From a virus, in IMG/VR virus record IMGVR_UViG_3300031787_000805, positions 1 to 24,419 of that record: a stretch of 24,419 nucleotides of DNA; one strand, 5' to 3'. The number at the start of each line of letters is the position of its first letter. Position 1 is the stretch's first letter. The notes under the pieces are model-generated. The model ran no database searches and was not told where the DNA came from. It saw nothing but the letters and a program-made list of their open reading frames with translations. Shown here piece after piece: positions 10,438 through 23,152 of this stretch. A program made the translations under genes and the position numbers.

Positions 10438-12002
10438 TGGCATCGCCCGTTCGCAGGCGGCTAATTCAGAAAACGACCGCCAACGTGGCGTCGTTGCCTG
10501 CCCCGGTGGGTGGCTGGAACGCTCGGGACGCACTCGCCAACATGGCTCCTACGGATGCCGTGTACTTGGAGAATATGTTTCCGAGCGTTTCCAACGTGAA
10601 TTTGCGCGGTGGATACACCAAACACAAGGTTGGGTTACCGGGAACCGTTGATACGTTGATAACGTACAACGCAGGCAACACCATCAAGTTGTTTGCTATT
10701 TCTACTGGCAACATTTACGACGTTACCTCTGCGGGCACGGCAGGATCGGCGCTAGTCGCCAGCCTTTCTAACTCCGCATGGGAATACACCAACGTAACTA
10801 CGGGCGGCGGCAGTTACCTTTATGCTGCTAACGGCGTAGACAAACCGTTGCTGTACAACGGCACAACATGGACGCCGATTGATGGCGTATCCACGCCTGC
10901 TATTACGGGCGTTACTACAACTGACTTGGAAAGCCCCACGCTGTTCAAAAACAGAATGTGGTTTATTCAAAAAGACACCCTAAAAGCATGGTATTTGCCG
11001 GTTGCGTCAGTCGGTGGCGCGGCTAACGTGCTTGACCTGTCTAGCGTCATGCACTTGGGCGGCAAACTCACGGCGATGGCAACGTGGACGATTGACGCAG
11101 GCTACGGCGTTGACGACAACCTTGTGTTGATTAGCGACAAGGGCGAAGTGGCCGTATATCGCGGCACAGACCCATCCAGTGCCTCTACATGGTCGCTTAT
11201 TGGCGTGTGGATCATCGGCCAGCCAATCAGTCGGCGCTGCGTGACCAAGTACGGTGGTGACCTGCTGATTCTGACGTTGGACGGTTTGATCCCGTTTGCC
11301 TCTGCGCTGCAATCGTCGCGCCTTGACCCCAACATTGCGTTGTCAGACAAGATACAGGGCGCATTTGCGTCAGCAGCACGCACGTATAAAGACACGTTTG
11401 GCTGGGCGCTGCTCTATAACCCGCTCAACAACGCCCTAATCGTCAACGTGCCAGTCAGCACCGGGCAACAGCAGTTTGTGATGAACAACATCACAAAAGC
11501 GTGGTGTAACTTTACGGGCTGGAACGCAAGTTCGTGGGCGTTGGTAGGAAGTGAGCCGTACTTTGGCGGCAATACCTACGTTTCAAAGGCGTGGACAACG
11601 GGCGACAACGGCTATATGGACGACGGGGAGCCGATCCCGACCAAGGCGTTGCAAGCGTTCAACTACTTTGAAACGCGTGGCGTCATCAAATACTTCACCC
11701 GCGCACGCCCAAGCATTTTTAGCAACGGTCAGCCGCAGATCGTCATTGGCATTAACACCGATTTTCAGACGGTAGACCAGACGGGCGCGCTGTCGTTCTC
11801 GCCCACCACCGCAGGGTTGTGGGGCATTGGCTCATGGGATGTGGCGTTGTGGGGTTCGGATGTGGTCATCACGAACAACCAATCCGGCGTGACAGGTTTG
11901 GGCTACTCGGGCGCTATTTCGTTTACGAGCAGCAGTAAAAACTTACAGATTCAATGGGCATCAACTGACGTTGTGTATCAAATCGGATGGGCTGGAATAT
12001 AG
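10437..12002 (+). CDS. tail hub / stabilization protein (P22 gp10 or T7 gp12-like)
   Basis: The 521-residue protein follows the adaptor in a TAATG overlap. After a basic N-terminus it reads PAPVGGWNARDALANMAPTD, then AVYLENMFPSVSNVNLRGGY, the typical opening of nozzle or hub proteins in short tails. Repeated beta-blade-like sections follow (SYLYAANGVDKPLLYNGTTW, NLVLISDKGEVAVYRGTDP, DLLILTLDGLIPFASALQSS), consistent with a beta-propeller. Such proteins close the channel below the adaptor and hold fibers or needle. The assignment to a hub is based on these segments and gene order; which of the known hub subfamilies it joins is not resolvable by eye. Confidence 0.75.
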   Translation: MASPVRRRLIQKTTANVASLPAPVGGWNARDALANMAPTDAVYLENMFPSVSNVNLRGGYTKHKVGLPGTVDTLITYNAGNTIKLFAISTGNIYDVTSAGTAGSALVASLSNSAWEYTNVTTGGGSYLYAANGVDKPLLYNGTTWTPIDGVSTPAITGVTTTDLESPTLFKNRMWFIQKDTLKAWYLPVASVGGAANVLDLSSVMHLGGKLTAMATWTIDAGYGVDDNLVLISDKGEVAVYRGTDPSSASTWSLIGVWIIGQPISRRCVTKYGGDLLILTLDGLIPFASALQSSRLDPNIALSDKIQGAFASAARTYKDTFGWALLYNPLNNALIVNVPVSTGQQQFVMNNITKAWCNFTGWNASSWALVGSEPYFGGNTYVSKAWTTGDNGYMDDGEPIPTKALQAFNYFETRGVIKYFTRARPSIFSNGQPQIVIGINTDFQTVDQTGALSFSPTTAGLWGIGSWDVALWGSDVVITNNQSGVTGLGYSGAISFTSSSKNLQIQWASTDVVYQIGWAGI

Positions 12003-12430
12003 TCAGCGGCCCCCACGTTGGGGCATGGGTAACCGCCCAGACCGAAGGGGCGTTTGACCCGAATCGGTCAGTTGCCATTGGGCTTGAACGCGACGGCAAG
12101 CTCGTTGCCGGAACCGTTTACGAGAATTGGAACGGGCGATCCGTCGTTTGCCACATCGCGTGGGAACGGGTTACCCCGACTTACATGGCTGCCGTTTACG
12201 ATTATGCGTACAACGTCGCAGGAGTTGATAAGATAATAGGGCCAATCAGCAGCAACCATACCCGGGCGCTCGCATTGGTCAGCAAGATGGGGTTTTCGGA
12301 AGAAGCGCGAATTAAAGACGCCGCGCACGATTCTGGAGACATTGTTTTGATGACTCTGACACCTGACAAGTGTCGTTTCTTGGAGCCGAGGTATGGGCAA
12401 AAAATCACCAGCACCGCCACCAGCGCCTGA
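11987..12430 (+). CDS. GNAT-family N-acetyltransferase
   Basis: The 147-residue product matches the small GNAT fold. A beta hairpin (SVAIGLERDGKLVAGTVYEN) precedes VCHIAWERVTPTYMAAVYDY and a helix-strand with YNVAGVDKIIGPISSNHTRA. The final ALALVSKMGFSEEARIKDA (113-131) and GDIVLMTLT are the classic C-terminal GNAT elements. GNATs move acetyl groups from acetyl-CoA to amines; the substrate here is unknown. The start overlaps the hub gene by 16 bp and the end overlaps the next gene by 38 bp, so the extremities are constrained by three frames. The last residues, QKITSTATSA, are probably a by-product of that overlap. Confidence 0.8.
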   Translation: MGWNIVSGPHVGAWVTAQTEGAFDPNRSVAIGLERDGKLVAGTVYENWNGRSVVCHIAWERVTPTYMAAVYDYAYNVAGVDKIIGPISSNHTRALALVSKMGFSEEARIKDAAHDSGDIVLMTLTPDKCRFLEPRYGQKITSTATSA

Positions 12431-15400
12431 CTACACCACCCTTGCGATCAAGCAGGGTGAGGCCAACATGGCCGCCGCCAGACAGTCGGCGTATATGTCC
12501 AATCCGAATATTTATTCGCCCACGGGTACGCAGACCGTTGAATGGACAAAGACGCCAACGGTTGATAAAGACGCCTACAACAAGGCGATGGAGGCTTACC
12601 AGCAGCGGTTGTTTAGCAACCCAGAAATGGCTGGTGAAGCGCCCTCTGAAGATCAATTTACGACGTTTATTGAGCAGCCGACTGTTCGCCAAACTATCAA
12701 TCCGAACGCCGAAGCCGCATTGCGTCAGCAAGAGCTGGCGCAGTTGTATATGTCGCAGGCAGCGTCGGGTGCGGCGAGTGGGCTTGGTAACCTCGGCATT
12801 GCCTCTGCGTTTGACGCCCGCAACATCCCCGGCTTGCGCTATGACGTAGCCGGTGCGGGTGACATTCAGCGCGGTTATCCGATGATGGGATATGCCGGTG
12901 CGCTTGGTCAGGGCGCAGGTGGCGAAATAGCGGGTGCTCCGCAGGGCGTGTATTCCCCGATGGCGGGGTATTACACCGAAGGATTGCCGGGTCAGGTTGG
13001 GCCGGGGCAGCAAGCGGGCGCTGGCCCTGCCGCACCAACCAACCTTGGGCAATTTGACGAATCGCGTTTCTATTCGCAGTCAGCTCCGGGCGGTCAAGCG
13101 TTTGGTACTGCAACGGGCGGCCCTGCTGGTATGCAATTTGGCGGCCTTGACCTGTCGGGTCTTGGCATGGCGCAAGGCGGCCCGAGCGCAGGACAGTTTG
13201 CCGCATACGGCGGCGTTGGCGCTCCGCAGATACAGGGCTTGAATCTTGCCAATGTAGGTCAAATTCTTGGCGGCCTTTCGCCGTCCATGTTGGCGCAACT
13301 TGGCGGTGGCCCATCAGCTGGCCTGTATGGCATGGCAGGCGGCGGCCCCGCTGGCGTTCAGTTTGGCGGCTTTAATGCCGCGCAACTTGGGCAGATTGCA
13401 AACGCTCCAAGCATGGGCGATTACGGCCTAGCAGGACGCGGCCCAGCTGCGGGTCAAATTGACCAAAACCTAAATTTGTCAGGCGTTGGCGATGTTGCCC
13501 GCAACGTGCAGGAAGGTCGGTTTGGGTATGCCCGTGGCGACCTTGCTACGCCAGAACTTCAGCGCCAGTTAGCCACACAAAACCTTGCCGCTATGCCGGT
13601 CAACGCAGGCATGACGGCGCAACAAGCGATCCTGTCGCGCTTGTCGCCGCAGTTGCAGGGCGAACGTCAGCAGCTTCAGACGCAGCTGATTAACCAAGGC
13701 TTGCGACCGGGTGGCGAGGCGTACAACTCTGCCATGTCGGCGCAGATGCAGAAGGAAAACGACCTTTTGCTGCAAGCCGCCGCGCAGGGCATTGGCCTAG
13801 ACGCGCAGATGCGTCAGCAGGGGCTTTCCGAGCAGCAGACGCTTGCCGGCTTTGCAAACCAAGCCGCATTGGCACAGTTTGGCGCTGGCGCACAGGGTTT
13901 GGGATTGTACAACCAAGCGTTGTCGCAGAACTTCCAACAGAGTCTTGCCGCGCAGTCAGCGCAGAACATGGCGCAACAGCAGGCGTTCCAGCAACGCCTT
14001 GCGGCAGGCGAATTTGGACGCGAAGCGCAACTCGCGTCGTTTGGCATGGGGCAATCTGCACAGCAGATGGCAAATCAAGCCACTCAGCAAAACTATCAGC
14101 AGGCGTTGGCTGCACAACAGGCACAAAACCAAGCGCAACAGCAAGGATTTGGCCAGCAGATGGCCATGCAGCAGTTCAGCCGTGAGGGTGCATTGGCTGG
14201 GTTTGAGACGCAGCAAGCAGCCCAGCAGGCTATCAATCAGGCTATCGCGCAAAACTTTGCCCAAGGCCAAGCCGCGCAGCAGCTTCAAAATCAGGCAGCC
14301 CAGCAAAACATTCAAAATGTGCTGGCGACCGAGGAAGCGCAGCGAGCAGCGCAAGCGCAGCAGTTTGGGCAGGCAGTTACTGGCGCACAAGCGGCAGCAG
14401 GACTTACTGGCCAGCAGTTTGAAATGCAGCAGGCTGCCCAACAGGCGCAAAATCAAGCGCAAGCGCAAAATTTCCAGCAAGCATTGGCTGCCGCACAGCA
14501 GGGCAATGCCGCGCAGCAGCAGAACTTCTTGCAGCGCGTTGCTGCGGGAGAGTTTGGCCGCGAAGCGCAACTGGCAACCTTCCAAACGGGTCAGCAAGCT
14601 GCACAAGCGCAAAATCAGGCCATTGGGCAGAATTTCCAGCAGGCTCTTGCCGCGCAGCAGGCTCAAAACGCGGCTATCGCGCAAAATTACCAACAAGCAC
14701 TTGGCGCTGGTCAATTCAACCGAGAAGCGTTGTTGCAGCAATTTGGCATGGGGCAGCAGGCACAGCAGCTTGCCAATGCCGCCGCAGGACAAAACTTCCA
14801 GCAGCAACTGGCCGCACAGCAGGCCAATCTTGCGCGTCAAGCCCAGCAGGTCGGTCAGTCGCAGGAGCAAGCGCAGTTCTACAACCAAGCGCAGGCGCAG
14901 GCTTATCAACAGGAATTGGCGCGTCAGGCTGCCGCAAACGCCGCACAACAACAGCGTTTCGGTCAACAGATGGATATTCAATCCGCGCAGAACGCCGCTC
15001 TGGCGCAGAATCAGGCACAGCAGCAAGCCGGTGCCGCATTCTTCAACCAAGCGCAGCAACAGCAGTTCCAGCAGAACATTGCCAATCAGCAGTTTTACAA
15101 CACGGCTGTGCAGCAGGCGTTGGCGCAGCAGGCGGCTATGCGAAGCATTCCGGTCAACGAGATCAGCGCATTGTTGTCAGGCGGTCAGGTCAACGTGCCG
15201 CAATTCCAAGGCTACAGCGGCGTCACCGTTGCACCTGCTCCCATCTTCCAAGGTGGTCAGGCGCAAGACGCAGCCGCAATGCAGCGGTATGGCATCCAAG
15301 CCAATCAGGCTGCGAGCAATGCGGGCGGGTTGTTCAACCTTGCAGGCTCGCTCGGTAGCGCAGCCATCATGGCGTCAGATCGCCGTTTGAAGTCCAACAT

Positions 15401-15563
15401 CGTGCGCGTAGGTACGCATCCGCTCGGCATAGGCGTGTACGAGTACGACATCTTTGGCAAGCGTCAGCGCGGCGTCATGGCTGACGAAGTTGAATCTGTG
15501 ATGCCAGAGGCGGTAGTAACGCATCCGGCTGGCTTCCAAATGGTCAACTACGGGATGCTCTAA
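12393..15563 (+). CDS. 1056-residue repeat protein with S74-type C-terminus
   Basis: A probable virion (internal or tail-tip) protein built of distinct parts. Residues 1-130 start MGKKSPAPPPAPDYTTLAIK, an opening often found in a family of phage virion proteins. Residues 230-371 are Gly-rich imperfect repeats. Residues 400-490 contain PVNAGMTAQQAILSRLSPQL. Residues 494-907 are 23 tandem 18-residue Gln/Ala-rich helical repeats. Residues 915-960 include VNEISALLSGGQVNVPQFQG. The end, from S995, reads SDRRLKSNIVRVGTH and QRGVMADEVESVMPEAVV, the signature of the S74 intramolecular chaperone, which in fibers can cleave itself just before that Ser. The gene overlaps the GNAT gene by 38 bp. The exact role (needle, ejected protein or fiber base) is uncertain. 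Confidence 0.85.
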   Translation: MGKKSPAPPPAPDYTTLAIKQGEANMAAARQSAYMSNPNIYSPTGTQTVEWTKTPTVDKDAYNKAMEAYQQRLFSNPEMAGEAPSEDQFTTFIEQPTVRQTINPNAEAALRQQELAQLYMSQAASGAASGLGNLGIASAFDARNIPGLRYDVAGAGDIQRGYPMMGYAGALGQGAGGEIAGAPQGVYSPMAGYYTEGLPGQVGPGQQAGAGPAAPTNLGQFDESRFYSQSAPGGQAFGTATGGPAGMQFGGLDLSGLGMAQGGPSAGQFAAYGGVGAPQIQGLNLANVGQILGGLSPSMLAQLGGGPSAGLYGMAGGGPAGVQFGGFNAAQLGQIANAPSMGDYGLAGRGPAAGQIDQNLNLSGVGDVARNVQEGRFGYARGDLATPELQRQLATQNLAAMPVNAGMTAQQAILSRLSPQLQGERQQLQTQLINQGLRPGGEAYNSAMSAQMQKENDLLLQAAAQGIGLDAQMRQQGLSEQQTLAGFANQAALAQFGAGAQGLGLYNQALSQNFQQSLAAQSAQNMAQQQAFQQRLAAGEFGREAQLASFGMGQSAQQMANQATQQNYQQALAAQQAQNQAQQQGFGQQMAMQQFSREGALAGFETQQAAQQAINQAIAQNFAQGQAAQQLQNQAAQQNIQNVLATEEAQRAAQAQQFGQAVTGAQAAAGLTGQQFEMQQAAQQAQNQAQAQNFQQALAAAQQGNAAQQQNFLQRVAAGEFGREAQLATFQTGQQAAQAQNQAIGQNFQQALAAQQAQNAAIAQNYQQALGAGQFNREALLQQFGMGQQAQQLANAAAGQNFQQQLAAQQANLARQAQQVGQSQEQAQFYNQAQAQAYQQELARQAAANAAQQQRFGQQMDIQSAQNAALAQNQAQQQAGAAFFNQAQQQQFQQNIANQQFYNTAVQQALAQQAAMRSIPVNEISALLSGGQVNVPQFQGYSGVTVAPAPIFQGGQAQDAAAMQRYGIQANQAASNAGGLFNLAGSLGSAAIMASDRRLKSNIVRVGTHPLGIGVYEYDIFGKRQRGVMADEVESVMPEAVVTHPAGFQMVNYGML
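13080..13505 (+). repeat. Gly-rich protein repeats, four imperfect units
   Basis: Within the 1056-residue protein, residues 230-371 divide into four units of 33, 43, 33 and 33 residues. Each carries a PSxGxYGxAG-like start, a GPAxxQ core and an NLxxxGxx end. Clear matches are GGPAGMQFGGLDLSGLG, GGPAGVQFGGFNAAQLG and RGPAAGQIDQNLNLSGVG. Codons have drifted, so this is an old duplication visible mainly at the protein level. Confidence 0.7.
13872..15113 (+). repeat. 23 tandem 54-bp units (18-residue helical repeats)
   Basis: Residues 494-907 of the 1056-residue protein split without a single insertion or deletion into 23 units of exactly 18 residues. Typical units are QNFQQALAAQQAQNAAIA, QAFQQRLAAGEFGREAQL and ATFQTGQQAAQAQNQAIG. 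Position 3 is Phe or Tyr in 20 of 23 units; the exceptions are Ile, Val and Gln. Units also group in threes (162 bp): units 2-4, 5-7, 12-14 and 15-17 follow the same A-B-C order, with an AAGEFGREAQL-like B unit. The DNA is dominated by CAG, CAA and GCN codons. Confidence 0.9.
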
Positions 15564-19621: not shown

Positions 19622-22600
19622 ATGAGCTTTAACGGCAGCGGTACATTTGTCATCAACTCGGCAGGTCAGCCTGTCGTAGCCAATACTGTCATCAGCGCGA
19701 CCACGTTTAACGCGCTGACAGCCGACCTTGCGAACGGTCTAACGACCTGTATCACCAAGGACGGGCAGAGTACGCCAACGGCCAACATTCCGATGGGCGG
19801 GTTCAAAATCACGAACCTTGCCACAGGTACGGCTGCTACGGACGCCGCTACGGTTGCCCAGATTCAGAGCAACGGCGCGGCCCTCGTTACGGTGACCGGA
19901 ACCGACACGCTGACCGGATCGCTGACCCCGGCCCTTGTCGCTTACGTTACGGGTGCGGTGTATTACTTTGTCGCCCCAGCAACCAACACGGGCGCTGTCA
20001 CGCTCAACATTGACACGCTCGGCGCAAAGAACGTCACGCGAGACGGCACCACCGCTCTTGTAGCCGGTGACATTGTTTCGGGCGAAATGATCGCCGTGGT
20101 GTACGACGGCACGCGCTTTCAGTTAATCAGCCCCGTCAACAGTTTCACCAACCTCAACGTGTCGGGCACGCTGACCGTTGCAGGTACGTCCACGCTTAAC
20201 GGCAACCTCGCCGTGGGTGATGCCGCTGCTGACACGATCAACTTCAAGTCAAGCGGCTGGACGCTGACGAACAACGTCTCCATCACGGGTACGTGGGCAG
20301 ACATTGGCTCCATTACCACCGCTGACATCAACGGTGGCACCATTGACGGCACGGTGATCGGTAACGGTTCTGCGGCTGCGGGTACGTTTACGACCCTCGG
20401 CGCGACGACCGGCAACATCACCACCGTCAACGCTACGACCGTAGATAGCACCAACCTTGAGGTAACCAACCTCAAAGCCAAAGACGGCACAGCGGCAGGC
20501 TCTATTGCCGACTCCACGGGCGTTGTCACGCTTAACAGCTTAAACGCCACAACGGTCAACATTGATGGCGGCACCATTGACGCCACGACCATTGGCGGGG
20601 CAGCCCCTGCGGCTGGCACGTTCTCTAACCTGACTGCCACCAATCTGTCGGCTGCATCAGCCAACCTTGGCGTGGCGGTTATTGGCACGTTCTCGGCAAC
20701 GACGCTGGAACTGACCAATCTTGAAGTGACCAACATCAAGGCTGATGACGGTACCTTGGCCATGACGGTGCAAAACGTCACCGGCAAGGTCAACATCCCT
20801 GTGGCATCTATCGCGTCAGCTAATGCCGCTGTGGCGCTAATCACAAACGGCACCGTCACCAACTTGGTGTCGTCTGACGCGTCCATTGGATCGGCTGCCA
20901 TCGTCAACGCCGCTGTCACTAATTTGACGGCAACTGGCGCGTCTATCGCCTCGGCCAATCTTGGCAATGCGGTTATTTCGTCACTTTCGTTGACGGGCGT
21001 ATCTATTGCCTCTGCCAACCTAGGCACCGCCGTTATTACCAACGGCACCGTTACAAATTTGACAGCAACAAGCGCCTCGGTTGCCTCGGTTAATGCAGGC
21101 GTGGCGCTGTTGACCACGGCAACGGTGACAAACCTGACCGCCTCTGGCGCGTCCATTGCGTCGGCTAATATCGGCAACCTTCAGTTTACCGCTGCCTCAA
21201 TCGCCAGCATCAACGCAGGCGTGGCGGTAATTACCAACCTCACGGCTACCAGCGCCTCTATTGCCTCGGCTAACGTCGGCACAGCGGTTGTTACGACGGG
21301 AACGGTGACCAACCTCACCTCTACCTCTGCGTCTATTGCGTCGGCTAATGCGGCGGTAGCGTTGGTGACTACGGGTACGGTCACGAACCTGACCAGCACC
21401 TCGGCCAGCATTGCCTCGGCTAACCTTGGCAACGCAGTTGCCACAACCTTGACGGCCACGGGGGCGTCGGTCGCGTCTGCCAACGTCGGCACAGCGGTAG
21501 TCACAGGGTTGACGGTGACTAACGCTTCTATTGCCTCGTTGAACGCAGGCACGGCGACGATCACGACCGGCAACCTCACCTTCTCGTCCACCGGCCAGCG
21601 CATCACGGGCGATATGTCCAATGCGACTCTTACCAGTCGGCTTGCTTTTCAGACCAGCACGACAGATGGCGCTACTAGATTGATGGTTCTTCCAAATGGA
21701 ACCTCAACGACATCTGCCTTTAATCTTTTAAATTCTTCAGACGCAAACAATGCGTCGTATTTAACTCTTGCTTGCGAATCAACTGTTGCAGCGTTTAGAG
21801 CCACAAACGCTGGCACCGGTACGTTGTTACCAATGGCATGGGTTACCGGCGGCAGCGAGCGTATGCGGCTGGATACGTCGGGGAATTTGCTGGTCAATAC
21901 AGCATCTAGCGGGTTCAATGCCGCAGGCTTGCCGTTAGTTGTCGGCTCTGGTTCCGGCAACACCGGAATGACGATTTATTCTGGAACTGCGGGCGTTGGA
22001 TCAATTCACTTTGGCGATACGGTAACGACAGGCGCTGACGGTTATCGCGGCTTTTTGAACTACAACCACAGCACCAACGCGATGCAGTTGGGAACTGACG
22101 CAACCGCTCGCATAACCATTGACGCCATCGGCAGCGTCGGTATTGGAGGGGCGGCAGACCCTACTGATAAATTTGCTATTAGAGGAACACTTCCTTCAAG
22201 CAGCACCGCTTCGCTTGCGTTTATCAATCGCGCAACAGTTCCAAGCACCACCACAACTATATACCAAGGTTTTACAAGCCTTCTGTACACGCAAGCGGCG
22301 TCGTTTACGCTTGGCAACGCAGTTCATTTTCAAGCGCAACAAGTTTCAATAGGCGCTGGCTCAACAGTAACTAATCAATTTGGATTTTTAGTTGACTCCG
22401 GTATGACCGGAGCCACCAACAACTACGGCTTCTACAGCAACATCGCCTCTGGCTCAAACCGCTGGAACTTCTATGCAGCGGGGACGGCGCAGAATTATTT
22501 TGCGGGAACTACCACGGTTGGAAACAACGACATTTCTCCCGCGTCTAGCAACGTGGCGGGTGTTGCAATTGGATCATCAGGGTACATTTCAGTTTCTCGC

Positions 22601-23152
22601 GACAGCAATGCTGTTGCCGGTTTTAATCGCAAAACTAACGATGGTGACATTGTTATATTTCATCAAGACGGAACCACGGAAGGCAGCATTTCGGTAAGCG
22701 GCAACACCATTTCGTATAACGCTTTTGCGGGTTCGCATTGGTCGCAACTGCAAGACGGCAGCAAGCCGGACATTCTGCGCGGCACGGTTATGGAGTCTAT
22801 TAACGAATTGTGCGTGTGGCCGGGTGAGCAGAATGAGCGTCTGCCCAAGTCCAAGATCAGCGACACCGCTGGCAGCAAGAAAGTCTACGGCGTTTTTATG
22901 GCTTGGGATAACGACTGGACTGCAACCAACGATATGCTAATTACGTCGGTTGGTGCGTTTATTTGTCGCGTCAACAGCAGCGTCACGGTGCAGGAAGGAG
23001 ATTTACTGGAATCCAACGGCGACGGCACGGCGCGTGTCCAAGCGGATGACATTATCCGCAGCAGCACCATTGGCAAAGTCACCAGCACGGTCAAAACGCA
23101 TCAATATGCTGACGGATCGTACTGTGTGCCGACTGTTCTGTATTGCGGCTAA
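19622..23152 (+). CDS. tail fiber with repetitive shaft and self-processing-type C-terminus
   Basis: A 1176-residue appendage likely to bind the host. Residues 1-85 hold a common phage fiber N-terminus (TTFNALTADLANGLTT, ANIPMGGFKITNLATGTAAT). A beta domain follows to about 165. Residues 238-394 are two copies of a 78-79 residue module, and residues 395-654 are 52 pentads. The distal part (about 655-1030) has fiber-tip segments such as GGSERMRLDTSGNLLV and a second DAIGSVGIGG. The final 145 residues (from Y1032, with AFAGSHWSQLQDGSKP, RGTVMESINELCVWPGEQN and VYGVFMAWDNDW) resemble a C-terminal trimerisation and auto-processing domain of the G2-like kind. TAGGAG at 19609-19614, made partly of the upstream stop, precedes the ATG by 7 bases. 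Confidence 0.9.
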   Translation: MSFNGSGTFVINSAGQPVVANTVISATTFNALTADLANGLTTCITKDGQSTPTANIPMGGFKITNLATGTAATDAATVAQIQSNGAALVTVTGTDTLTGSLTPALVAYVTGAVYYFVAPATNTGAVTLNIDTLGAKNVTRDGTTALVAGDIVSGEMIAVVYDGTRFQLISPVNSFTNLNVSGTLTVAGTSTLNGNLAVGDAAADTINFKSSGWTLTNNVSITGTWADIGSITTADINGGTIDGTVIGNGSAAAGTFTTLGATTGNITTVNATTVDSTNLEVTNLKAKDGTAAGSIADSTGVVTLNSLNATTVNIDGGTIDATTIGGAAPAAGTFSNLTATNLSAASANLGVAVIGTFSATTLELTNLEVTNIKADDGTLAMTVQNVTGKVNIPVASIASANAAVALITNGTVTNLVSSDASIGSAAIVNAAVTNLTATGASIASANLGNAVISSLSLTGVSIASANLGTAVITNGTVTNLTATSASVASVNAGVALLTTATVTNLTASGASIASANIGNLQFTAASIASINAGVAVITNLTATSASIASANVGTAVVTTGTVTNLTSTSASIASANAAVALVTTGTVTNLTSTSASIASANLGNAVATTLTATGASVASANVGTAVVTGLTVTNASIASLNAGTATITTGNLTFSSTGQRITGDMSNATLTSRLAFQTSTTDGATRLMVLPNGTSTTSAFNLLNSSDANNASYLTLACESTVAAFRATNAGTGTLLPMAWVTGGSERMRLDTSGNLLVNTASSGFNAAGLPLVVGSGSGNTGMTIYSGTAGVGSIHFGDTVTTGADGYRGFLNYNHSTNAMQLGTDATARITIDAIGSVGIGGAADPTDKFAIRGTLPSSSTASLAFINRATVPSTTTTIYQGFTSLLYTQAASFTLGNAVHFQAQQVSIGAGSTVTNQFGFLVDSGMTGATNNYGFYSNIASGSNRWNFYAAGTAQNYFAGTTTVGNNDISPASSNVAGVAIGSSGYISVSRDSNAVAGFNRKTNDGDIVIFHQDGTTEGSISVSGNTISYNAFAGSHWSQLQDGSKPDILRGTVMESINELCVWPGEQNERLPKSKISDTAGSKKVYGVFMAWDNDWTATNDMLITSVGAFICRVNSSVTVQEGDLLESNGDGTARVQADDIIRSSTIGKVTSTVKTHQYADGSYCVPTVLYCG
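20333..20803 (+). repeat. two-copy module in the tail fiber shaft
   Basis: Two consecutive copies, 20333-20566 (78 residues) and 20567-20803 (79 residues), share a start GGTIDxTxIG, an AAGTF(T/S)xL element and a long match NLEVTN(L/I)KA(K/D)DGT. The second copy ends exactly where the pentad array begins. The middle parts have diverged. Both copies are probably beta-helical or beta-prism shaft segments. Confidence 0.65.
20804..21583 (+). repeat. 52 in-register pentads in the tail fiber shaft
   Basis: Residues 395-654 of the fiber divide into twelve blocks, each opening with A-S-I-A-S or a close variant. Block lengths are 25, 20, 20, 25, 25, 15, 20, 25, 25, 20, 20 and 20 residues, so every one is a multiple of five. 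Typical pentads are ASIAS, ANLGT, AVITN and GTVTN. Position 3 of each pentad is usually Ile, Leu or Val, and position 1 is often Ala, Gly or Leu. At the DNA level, blocks differ by whole multiples of 15 bp. Confidence 0.85.

Follow-up and report, generated by a model that had tools for sequence, protein, structure and literature searches.

The window analysed here, a linear viral record of 24,419 bases taken at its full length, carries on its plus strand an open reading frame (19622..23152; P0001) for a 1176-aa protein that resembles a tail fiber and lies within a structural gene cluster. Its neighbours in the window match terminase, portal, major head, tail and amidase families, and residues 1-394 of the protein match the "virion structural protein" family phrog_13989 (E 2.7e-9). 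Residues 1-229 (19622..20308, plus strand), set apart by similarity to other phage proteins and by conservation among homologs, are presumably the virion-proximal part. In phage MW202489, the protein encoded at the syntenic position shares 54% identity with residues 1-62 at its own N-terminus, and its gene, like the window's fiber gene, follows two long hypothetical genes. Residues 104-176 are similar to tail fibers of Pseudomonas phages. Given the structural neighbours, the family match and the N-terminal similarity and synteny with MW202489, the open reading frame probably encodes a tail fiber, and the neighbours together with weak family matches suggest that its product would be located in the virion. 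A structural gene neighbourhood, a conserved N-terminus and stalk and a variable C-terminal tip, which are general marks of tail fibers, were all found.

The main shaft occupies residues 395-654 (20804..21583, plus strand). A first-pass annotation had described this stretch as 52 pentads in a single register, grouped into 12 blocks of 15, 20 or 25 residues; its coordinates and frame are exact, and the arrangement lies far above chance. Eight blocks open with ASIAS, two with ASVAS, one with ASIGS and one with VSIAS, at opening-to-opening spacings of 25, 20, 20, 25, 25, 15, 20, 25, 25, 20 and 20 residues, and the last block has 20. The preference for aliphatic residues at the centre, also part of that description, was reproduced: position 3 is Ile, Leu or Val in 37 of the 52 pentads, compared with a single-phase maximum of 27 in 20,000 residue shuffles. 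The identity autocorrelation of the shaft peaks at lags 20 (z = 11.0) and 25 (z = 11.5), and most neighbouring lags are negative. Ala stands at pentad position 1 (i-2) in 62% of pentads. The blocks share only 45-78% DNA identity, and the register is nonetheless perfect.

The pentad register extends upstream of the shaft. Five-phase Viterbi decoding delimited a first stretch at residues 230-284 (20309..20473) and a second at residues 306-371 (20537..20734), both on the plus strand and broken by two copies of a module of about 31 residues. A module pattern search placed copy 1, STNLEVTNLKAKDGTAAGSIADSTGVVTLNS, at residues 276-306 (20447..20539, plus strand) and copy 2, LTNLEVTNIKADDGTLAMTVQNVTGKVNIPV, at residues 364-394 (20711..20803, plus strand), directly before the shaft and within a register-breaking spacing of 53 residues. 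The module pattern, xTNLEVTNxKAxDGT...TGxVN, occurs 47 times in the set of 53 homologs, 25 of which have it. It disrupts the five-residue register of the stalk and may form a wider knob on it. Long antisense open reading frames mirror the repeat (20119-21177, minus strand, 352 aa; 21181-21621, minus strand, 146 aa); these look like a by-product of repeat codon usage, not genes.

A scan of viral contigs yielded 62 loci, from which 56 distinct proteins, the window's included, were analysed. Among block-opening spacings of up to 60 residues, 480 of 488 are multiples of five (64 of 15, 206 of 20, 207 of 25 and 3 of 45), counts that are not independent events since the homologs are related to each other. 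The eight off-register spacings comprise seven of 53 residues and one of 18. Six of the seven cross the separate module of about 31 residues, and the seventh (L055) runs past the end of the shaft. The spacing of 18 lies in shaft block 2 of L023 and reflects a true 21-bp (-7-residue) deletion relative to L018, to which L023 is otherwise 98.4% identical. The first-pass annotation had named homolog length changes other than multiples of five as evidence against its reading, and this deletion is the one such case among hundreds of spacings. As the sole true register break within a shaft, it could be real or an assembly error. Spacings of 28 (L002) and 57 (L024, L029) in the initial motif scan were regex or upstream artefacts and were discounted as exceptions.

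Five-phase Viterbi decoding of the 56 homologs gave a single phase shift over their 14,088 pentad residues. When the model was re-learned on whole proteins, 70 shifts appeared in 53 proteins, and those among the shifts listed fall mostly inside punctuation modules. Of the periods scored (4-7), period 5 stands far above 4, 6 and 7. Pentad positions 1 and 3 are complementary in size: the 179 distinct pentads of the family divide into 94 small/large, 47 large/small, 30 large/large and 8 small/small, as expected if both positions face one core. A separate covariation links positions 3 and 5 of the second pentad with position 2 of the third across 185 distinct homolog blocks (L001-L059). Two states of this triplet prevail, (large, polar, V) with 56 blocks and (A, V, L) with 51, few blocks being mixed; they may reflect the packing of the core or a dual ancestry of the blocks.

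Total shaft length is a multiple of five residues in 50 of 51 homologs, and these totals are spread across all classes modulo 15 and modulo 20. The register is therefore counted in single pentads and not in coils, whether of a triangular or a square helix, and the spread contradicts the earlier suggestion that the shaft lengthens by whole coils. The accompanying proposal of 15-bp steps holds as a rule of register but not as an event, since the closest relatives differ by whole 60- or 75-bp blocks and their sums: pairs at about 90% nucleotide identity or above differ mostly by a clean 60, 75, 120, 210 or 225 bp. For example, L009 carries one ASIASANIGTAVITAATVTG block more than L007, adjoining a near-identical block. 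Gaps of 1, 4, 9, 11 and 76 bp, which are not multiples of 15, also occur between pairs; with the exception of the 21 bp of L023, such odd sizes seem to arise largely where pairs are less alike or gaps are split. The multiples of 15 bp would follow from blocks being made of pentads and from other indels being purged, the purging itself being a supposition.

The first-pass annotation had likened the shaft to pentapeptide repeat (PPR) proteins, on the basis of their i-2/i pattern, and this resemblance proved specific. A phmmer search with the shaft against all PDB sequences returned PPR chains as its ten best matches (best E 1e-5; HetL 4.8e-4, NP275-NP276 2e-3), and a family profile gave eight matches, all to designed PPR proteins. 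Neither a residue shuffle of the shaft nor a fixed permutation of its pentad columns, which keeps period and composition, matched anything in the PDB, so it is the i-2/i order, rather than composition, that underlies the PPR match. No PDB fiber sequence matched the shaft in the phmmer and profile searches. At the level of sequence search, the results favour a monomeric fold class, that of PPR proteins, over any trimeric beta-helix in the PDB. Like the designed beta1 proteins (4yc5/4yfo), HetL (3du1) and NP275-NP276 (2j8k), the shaft has tandem pentads in an unbroken register, with i-2 occupied by Ala and i by an aliphatic residue.

Membership of the PPR family itself was not upheld. At E<=0.1, 7 of 38 members hit Pentapeptide_4 (lowest E 4.4e-7), but the window scores 16.2-16.6 bits and L026 27 bits, below the Pfam cut-off of 38. 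A small residue at i-2 (65%) is the sole canonical PPR element found. The centre is Ile or Val in 60% of pentads and Leu, Phe or Met in 13%, where PPR proteins have Leu or Phe, and Asp or Asn stands at i-1 in only 23%. The shaft differs from PPR proteins further in its fiber context, in having relatives with a trimer chaperone, and in lacking a confident monomer fold: the square beta-helix put forward in the first-pass annotation was sought in two monomer predictions, neither of which gave a confident square helix. Mean pLDDT was 56 with a 38-row gapped alignment and 46 with a cleaner 25-row alignment, and this low AlphaFold confidence is only suggestive as to the fold. Foldseek searches of these models against the PDB and viral models gave no significant match, with TM scores to PPR entries of 0.11-0.24. 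Two further searches bear on the repeat. Ten of 38 members match the Pfam family bPH_5 (best 6e-5), but the match is below cut-off in the window, overlaps the repeat and was set aside as repeat cross-talk. A tblastn query of cultured phages with the shaft gave no hit; the BLAST low-complexity filter probably masks the shaft, so the empty result does not speak for its absence there.

One explanation of these similarities is that each chain alone forms a right-handed square beta-helix, with 20 residues per coil and three chains possibly side by side, as a degenerate but true PPR domain. The PDB and profile matches, absent in the controls, the Pentapeptide_4 hits in 7 of 38 members and the Ala at i-2 are consistent with it. 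The missed Pfam cut-off (16.2-27 bits among the scores listed), the non-canonical centre and i-1, the structure predictions, and shaft totals that are not multiples of 20 argue against it, and we consider it rather improbable.

Evidence for a trimer comes from relatives of the fiber. A Peptidase_S74 domain was detected in 15 of the 28 homolog C-termini scanned (best E 1.6e-17), and none was recognised in the window's own tip, scanned alongside them. The S74/ICA intramolecular chaperone domain assembles phage homotrimers with a triple-beta-helix stalk (PMC8326128; also PMC11058221). These 15 relatives of the shaft resemble S74/ICA tailspikes and fibers, such as endosialidase and the GA-1 appendage, in their C-terminal domain, whereas the window's fiber has a different tip. 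Wider domains also punctuate the triple beta-helix of the T4 gp34 stalk (PMC5537660); the window's stalk would be similar in being trimeric, with an aliphatic core and extra domains between its repeats, but the gp34 triple beta-helix has no clear sequence motif and the window's shaft has a strict five-residue grammar. The P-SCSP1u gp28 fiber consists of six trimers, with distal parts that were not resolved by cryo-EM (PMC10575957), and could not be used as a template for this reason. Because S74 occurs in over half of the scanned homologs, the trimeric arrangement that the first-pass annotation had listed as an alternative is now favoured; together with the gp28 trimers and the gp34 parallel, it makes a trimeric stalk highly probable.

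A trimer could also be an ordinary triple beta-helix or triple beta-spiral of a solved type, built from octads, hexads or 15-residue units, that looks pentadic by chance. Triple beta-helices with wider domains at intervals are common in the stalks of phage fibers, T4 gp34 among them (PMC5537660), and the window's shaft is likewise interrupted by a recurring module. Nonetheless, the fit at periods 6 and 7 is far poorer than at 5, shaft totals are not multiples of 15, and the shaft has no match among PDB fiber sequences; a solved fold of this kind is unlikely.

Pentads are also found in other fibers. The register is dominant in an AKIAD-type family of at least 564 related stretches and in a SANIT-type family of 59 loci (L071-L129), and a cyanophage-like fiber (L060) carries the pentads NGTIT NLTGT AATIT and an S74 domain at its end. 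Because all three are pentadic, pentad fiber shafts constitute a wider class, within which the family of the window's shaft has an unusually clean block grammar. Among the papers searched, none was dedicated to pentad-repeat phage fibers. The AKIAD/NVTT fibers of T7-like marine phages (e.g. AP013539, a relative of P-SCSP1u gp28) resemble the shaft in their aliphatic centre, frequent Ala at position 1 and a clearly best period of 5. They differ in having a Phage_T7_tail N-terminal anchor, charged K/D in the repeat, and regular 10-residue words where the window's shaft has blocks of 15, 20 or 25. One such T7-like fiber (L065) is related to P-SCSP1u gp28, which is built as trimers and has a distal shaft that cryo-EM did not resolve. 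In the SANIT-type family, pentad runs are regularly interrupted off-register by a TTFGxxATTQLRGASG element.

The shaft is under strong purifying selection, with dN/dS of 0.00-0.11 among relatives with equal block patterns and 0.05 between the window and L002. A register that merely reflects shared ancestry and drift in a disordered or loose Ala/Ser/Thr-rich linker, free of structural constraint, would account for the low-complexity composition, the low AlphaFold confidence and the block types that related homologs have in common, but is very unlikely in view of this selection, the perfect register of blocks at 45-78% DNA identity, the hydrophobic phase with its size complementarity, and the dominance of period 5 in two other fiber families.

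The C-terminal tip (residues 655-1176; 21584..23149, plus strand), recognised by its divergence between homologs, is presumed to be the receptor-binding part. In homolog pairs with 94-100% identical shafts, N-termini are usually 95-100% identical and C-termini mostly only about 32-60% identical. The stalk is thus conserved and the tip is exchanged or fast-diverging. In the window, residues 975-1173 share 47% identity with the C-terminus of the tail fiber of Roseobacter phage CRP-831, the last ~200 residues share about 35% with Pelagibacter phages, and residues 738-962 are similar to Synechococcus phages.

These data are best explained, with a probability of roughly 0.6, by a trimeric beta-solenoid stalk that has one face per pentad and carries exchangeable tips. 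The repeat would make up the stalk of a phage tail fiber formed as a homotrimer, and each pentad one short face, a strand and a turn, of a beta-solenoid-like rod; this assignment of one face to each pentad is probable. Pentad positions 1 and 3 would point into the core and complement each other in size, such that an off-register indel would break the core and the gain or loss of whole pentads would not. Because the elementary unit would be one face, any whole number of pentads could be tolerated. Stalk length would change by duplication or loss of whole blocks of 15, 20 or 25 residues, probably through recombination between similar block DNA, and the conserved N-terminus and stalk would carry interchangeable C-terminal tips, which would contact the host, presumably as receptor binders. 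An intertwined triple helix is the somewhat likelier arrangement of the three chains, and three separate square helices a serious contender. A more far-reaching version is proposed tentatively: the beta-solenoid trimer, in which every face would have exactly five residues, may be a fold that has yet to be solved and is common to at least three unrelated-looking fiber families, with the register filtering the evolution of stalk length into whole faces through block duplication and loss as tips are exchanged.

By estimate, a square helix would rise by about 0.24 Angstrom with each residue and an intertwined triple helix by about 1 Angstrom, and shaft length in a single micrograph would separate the two. 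Host range is set by phage fibers, whose long stalks have been poorly resolved, as for the distal fiber of the related cyanophage P-SCSP1u (PMC10575957). A strict five-residue grammar that purifying selection maintains in dozens of relatives would supply a rule for the stalk-length changes that are tolerated and for the sites of tip exchange.

Several further observations are minor. The genome-contig scan returned one Planctomycetota MAG fragment of 72 aa, partly masked and too small for host assignment. The label "triple helix repeat-containing collagen" on the MW202489 protein (L067 6001-7137) was dropped as proof of a trimer; the protein sequence lacks Gly-X-Y repeats, and the label is therefore spurious. 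An acetyltransferase is annotated further upstream of the fiber-like gene in MW202489, and an acyltransferase-like gene lies among the virion genes of the window at 11987-12430 (phrog_4470, E 1.2e-28). A second large structural protein of 1056 aa (window 12393-15563), similar to phrog_6121, has its own C-terminal Peptidase_S74 domain.
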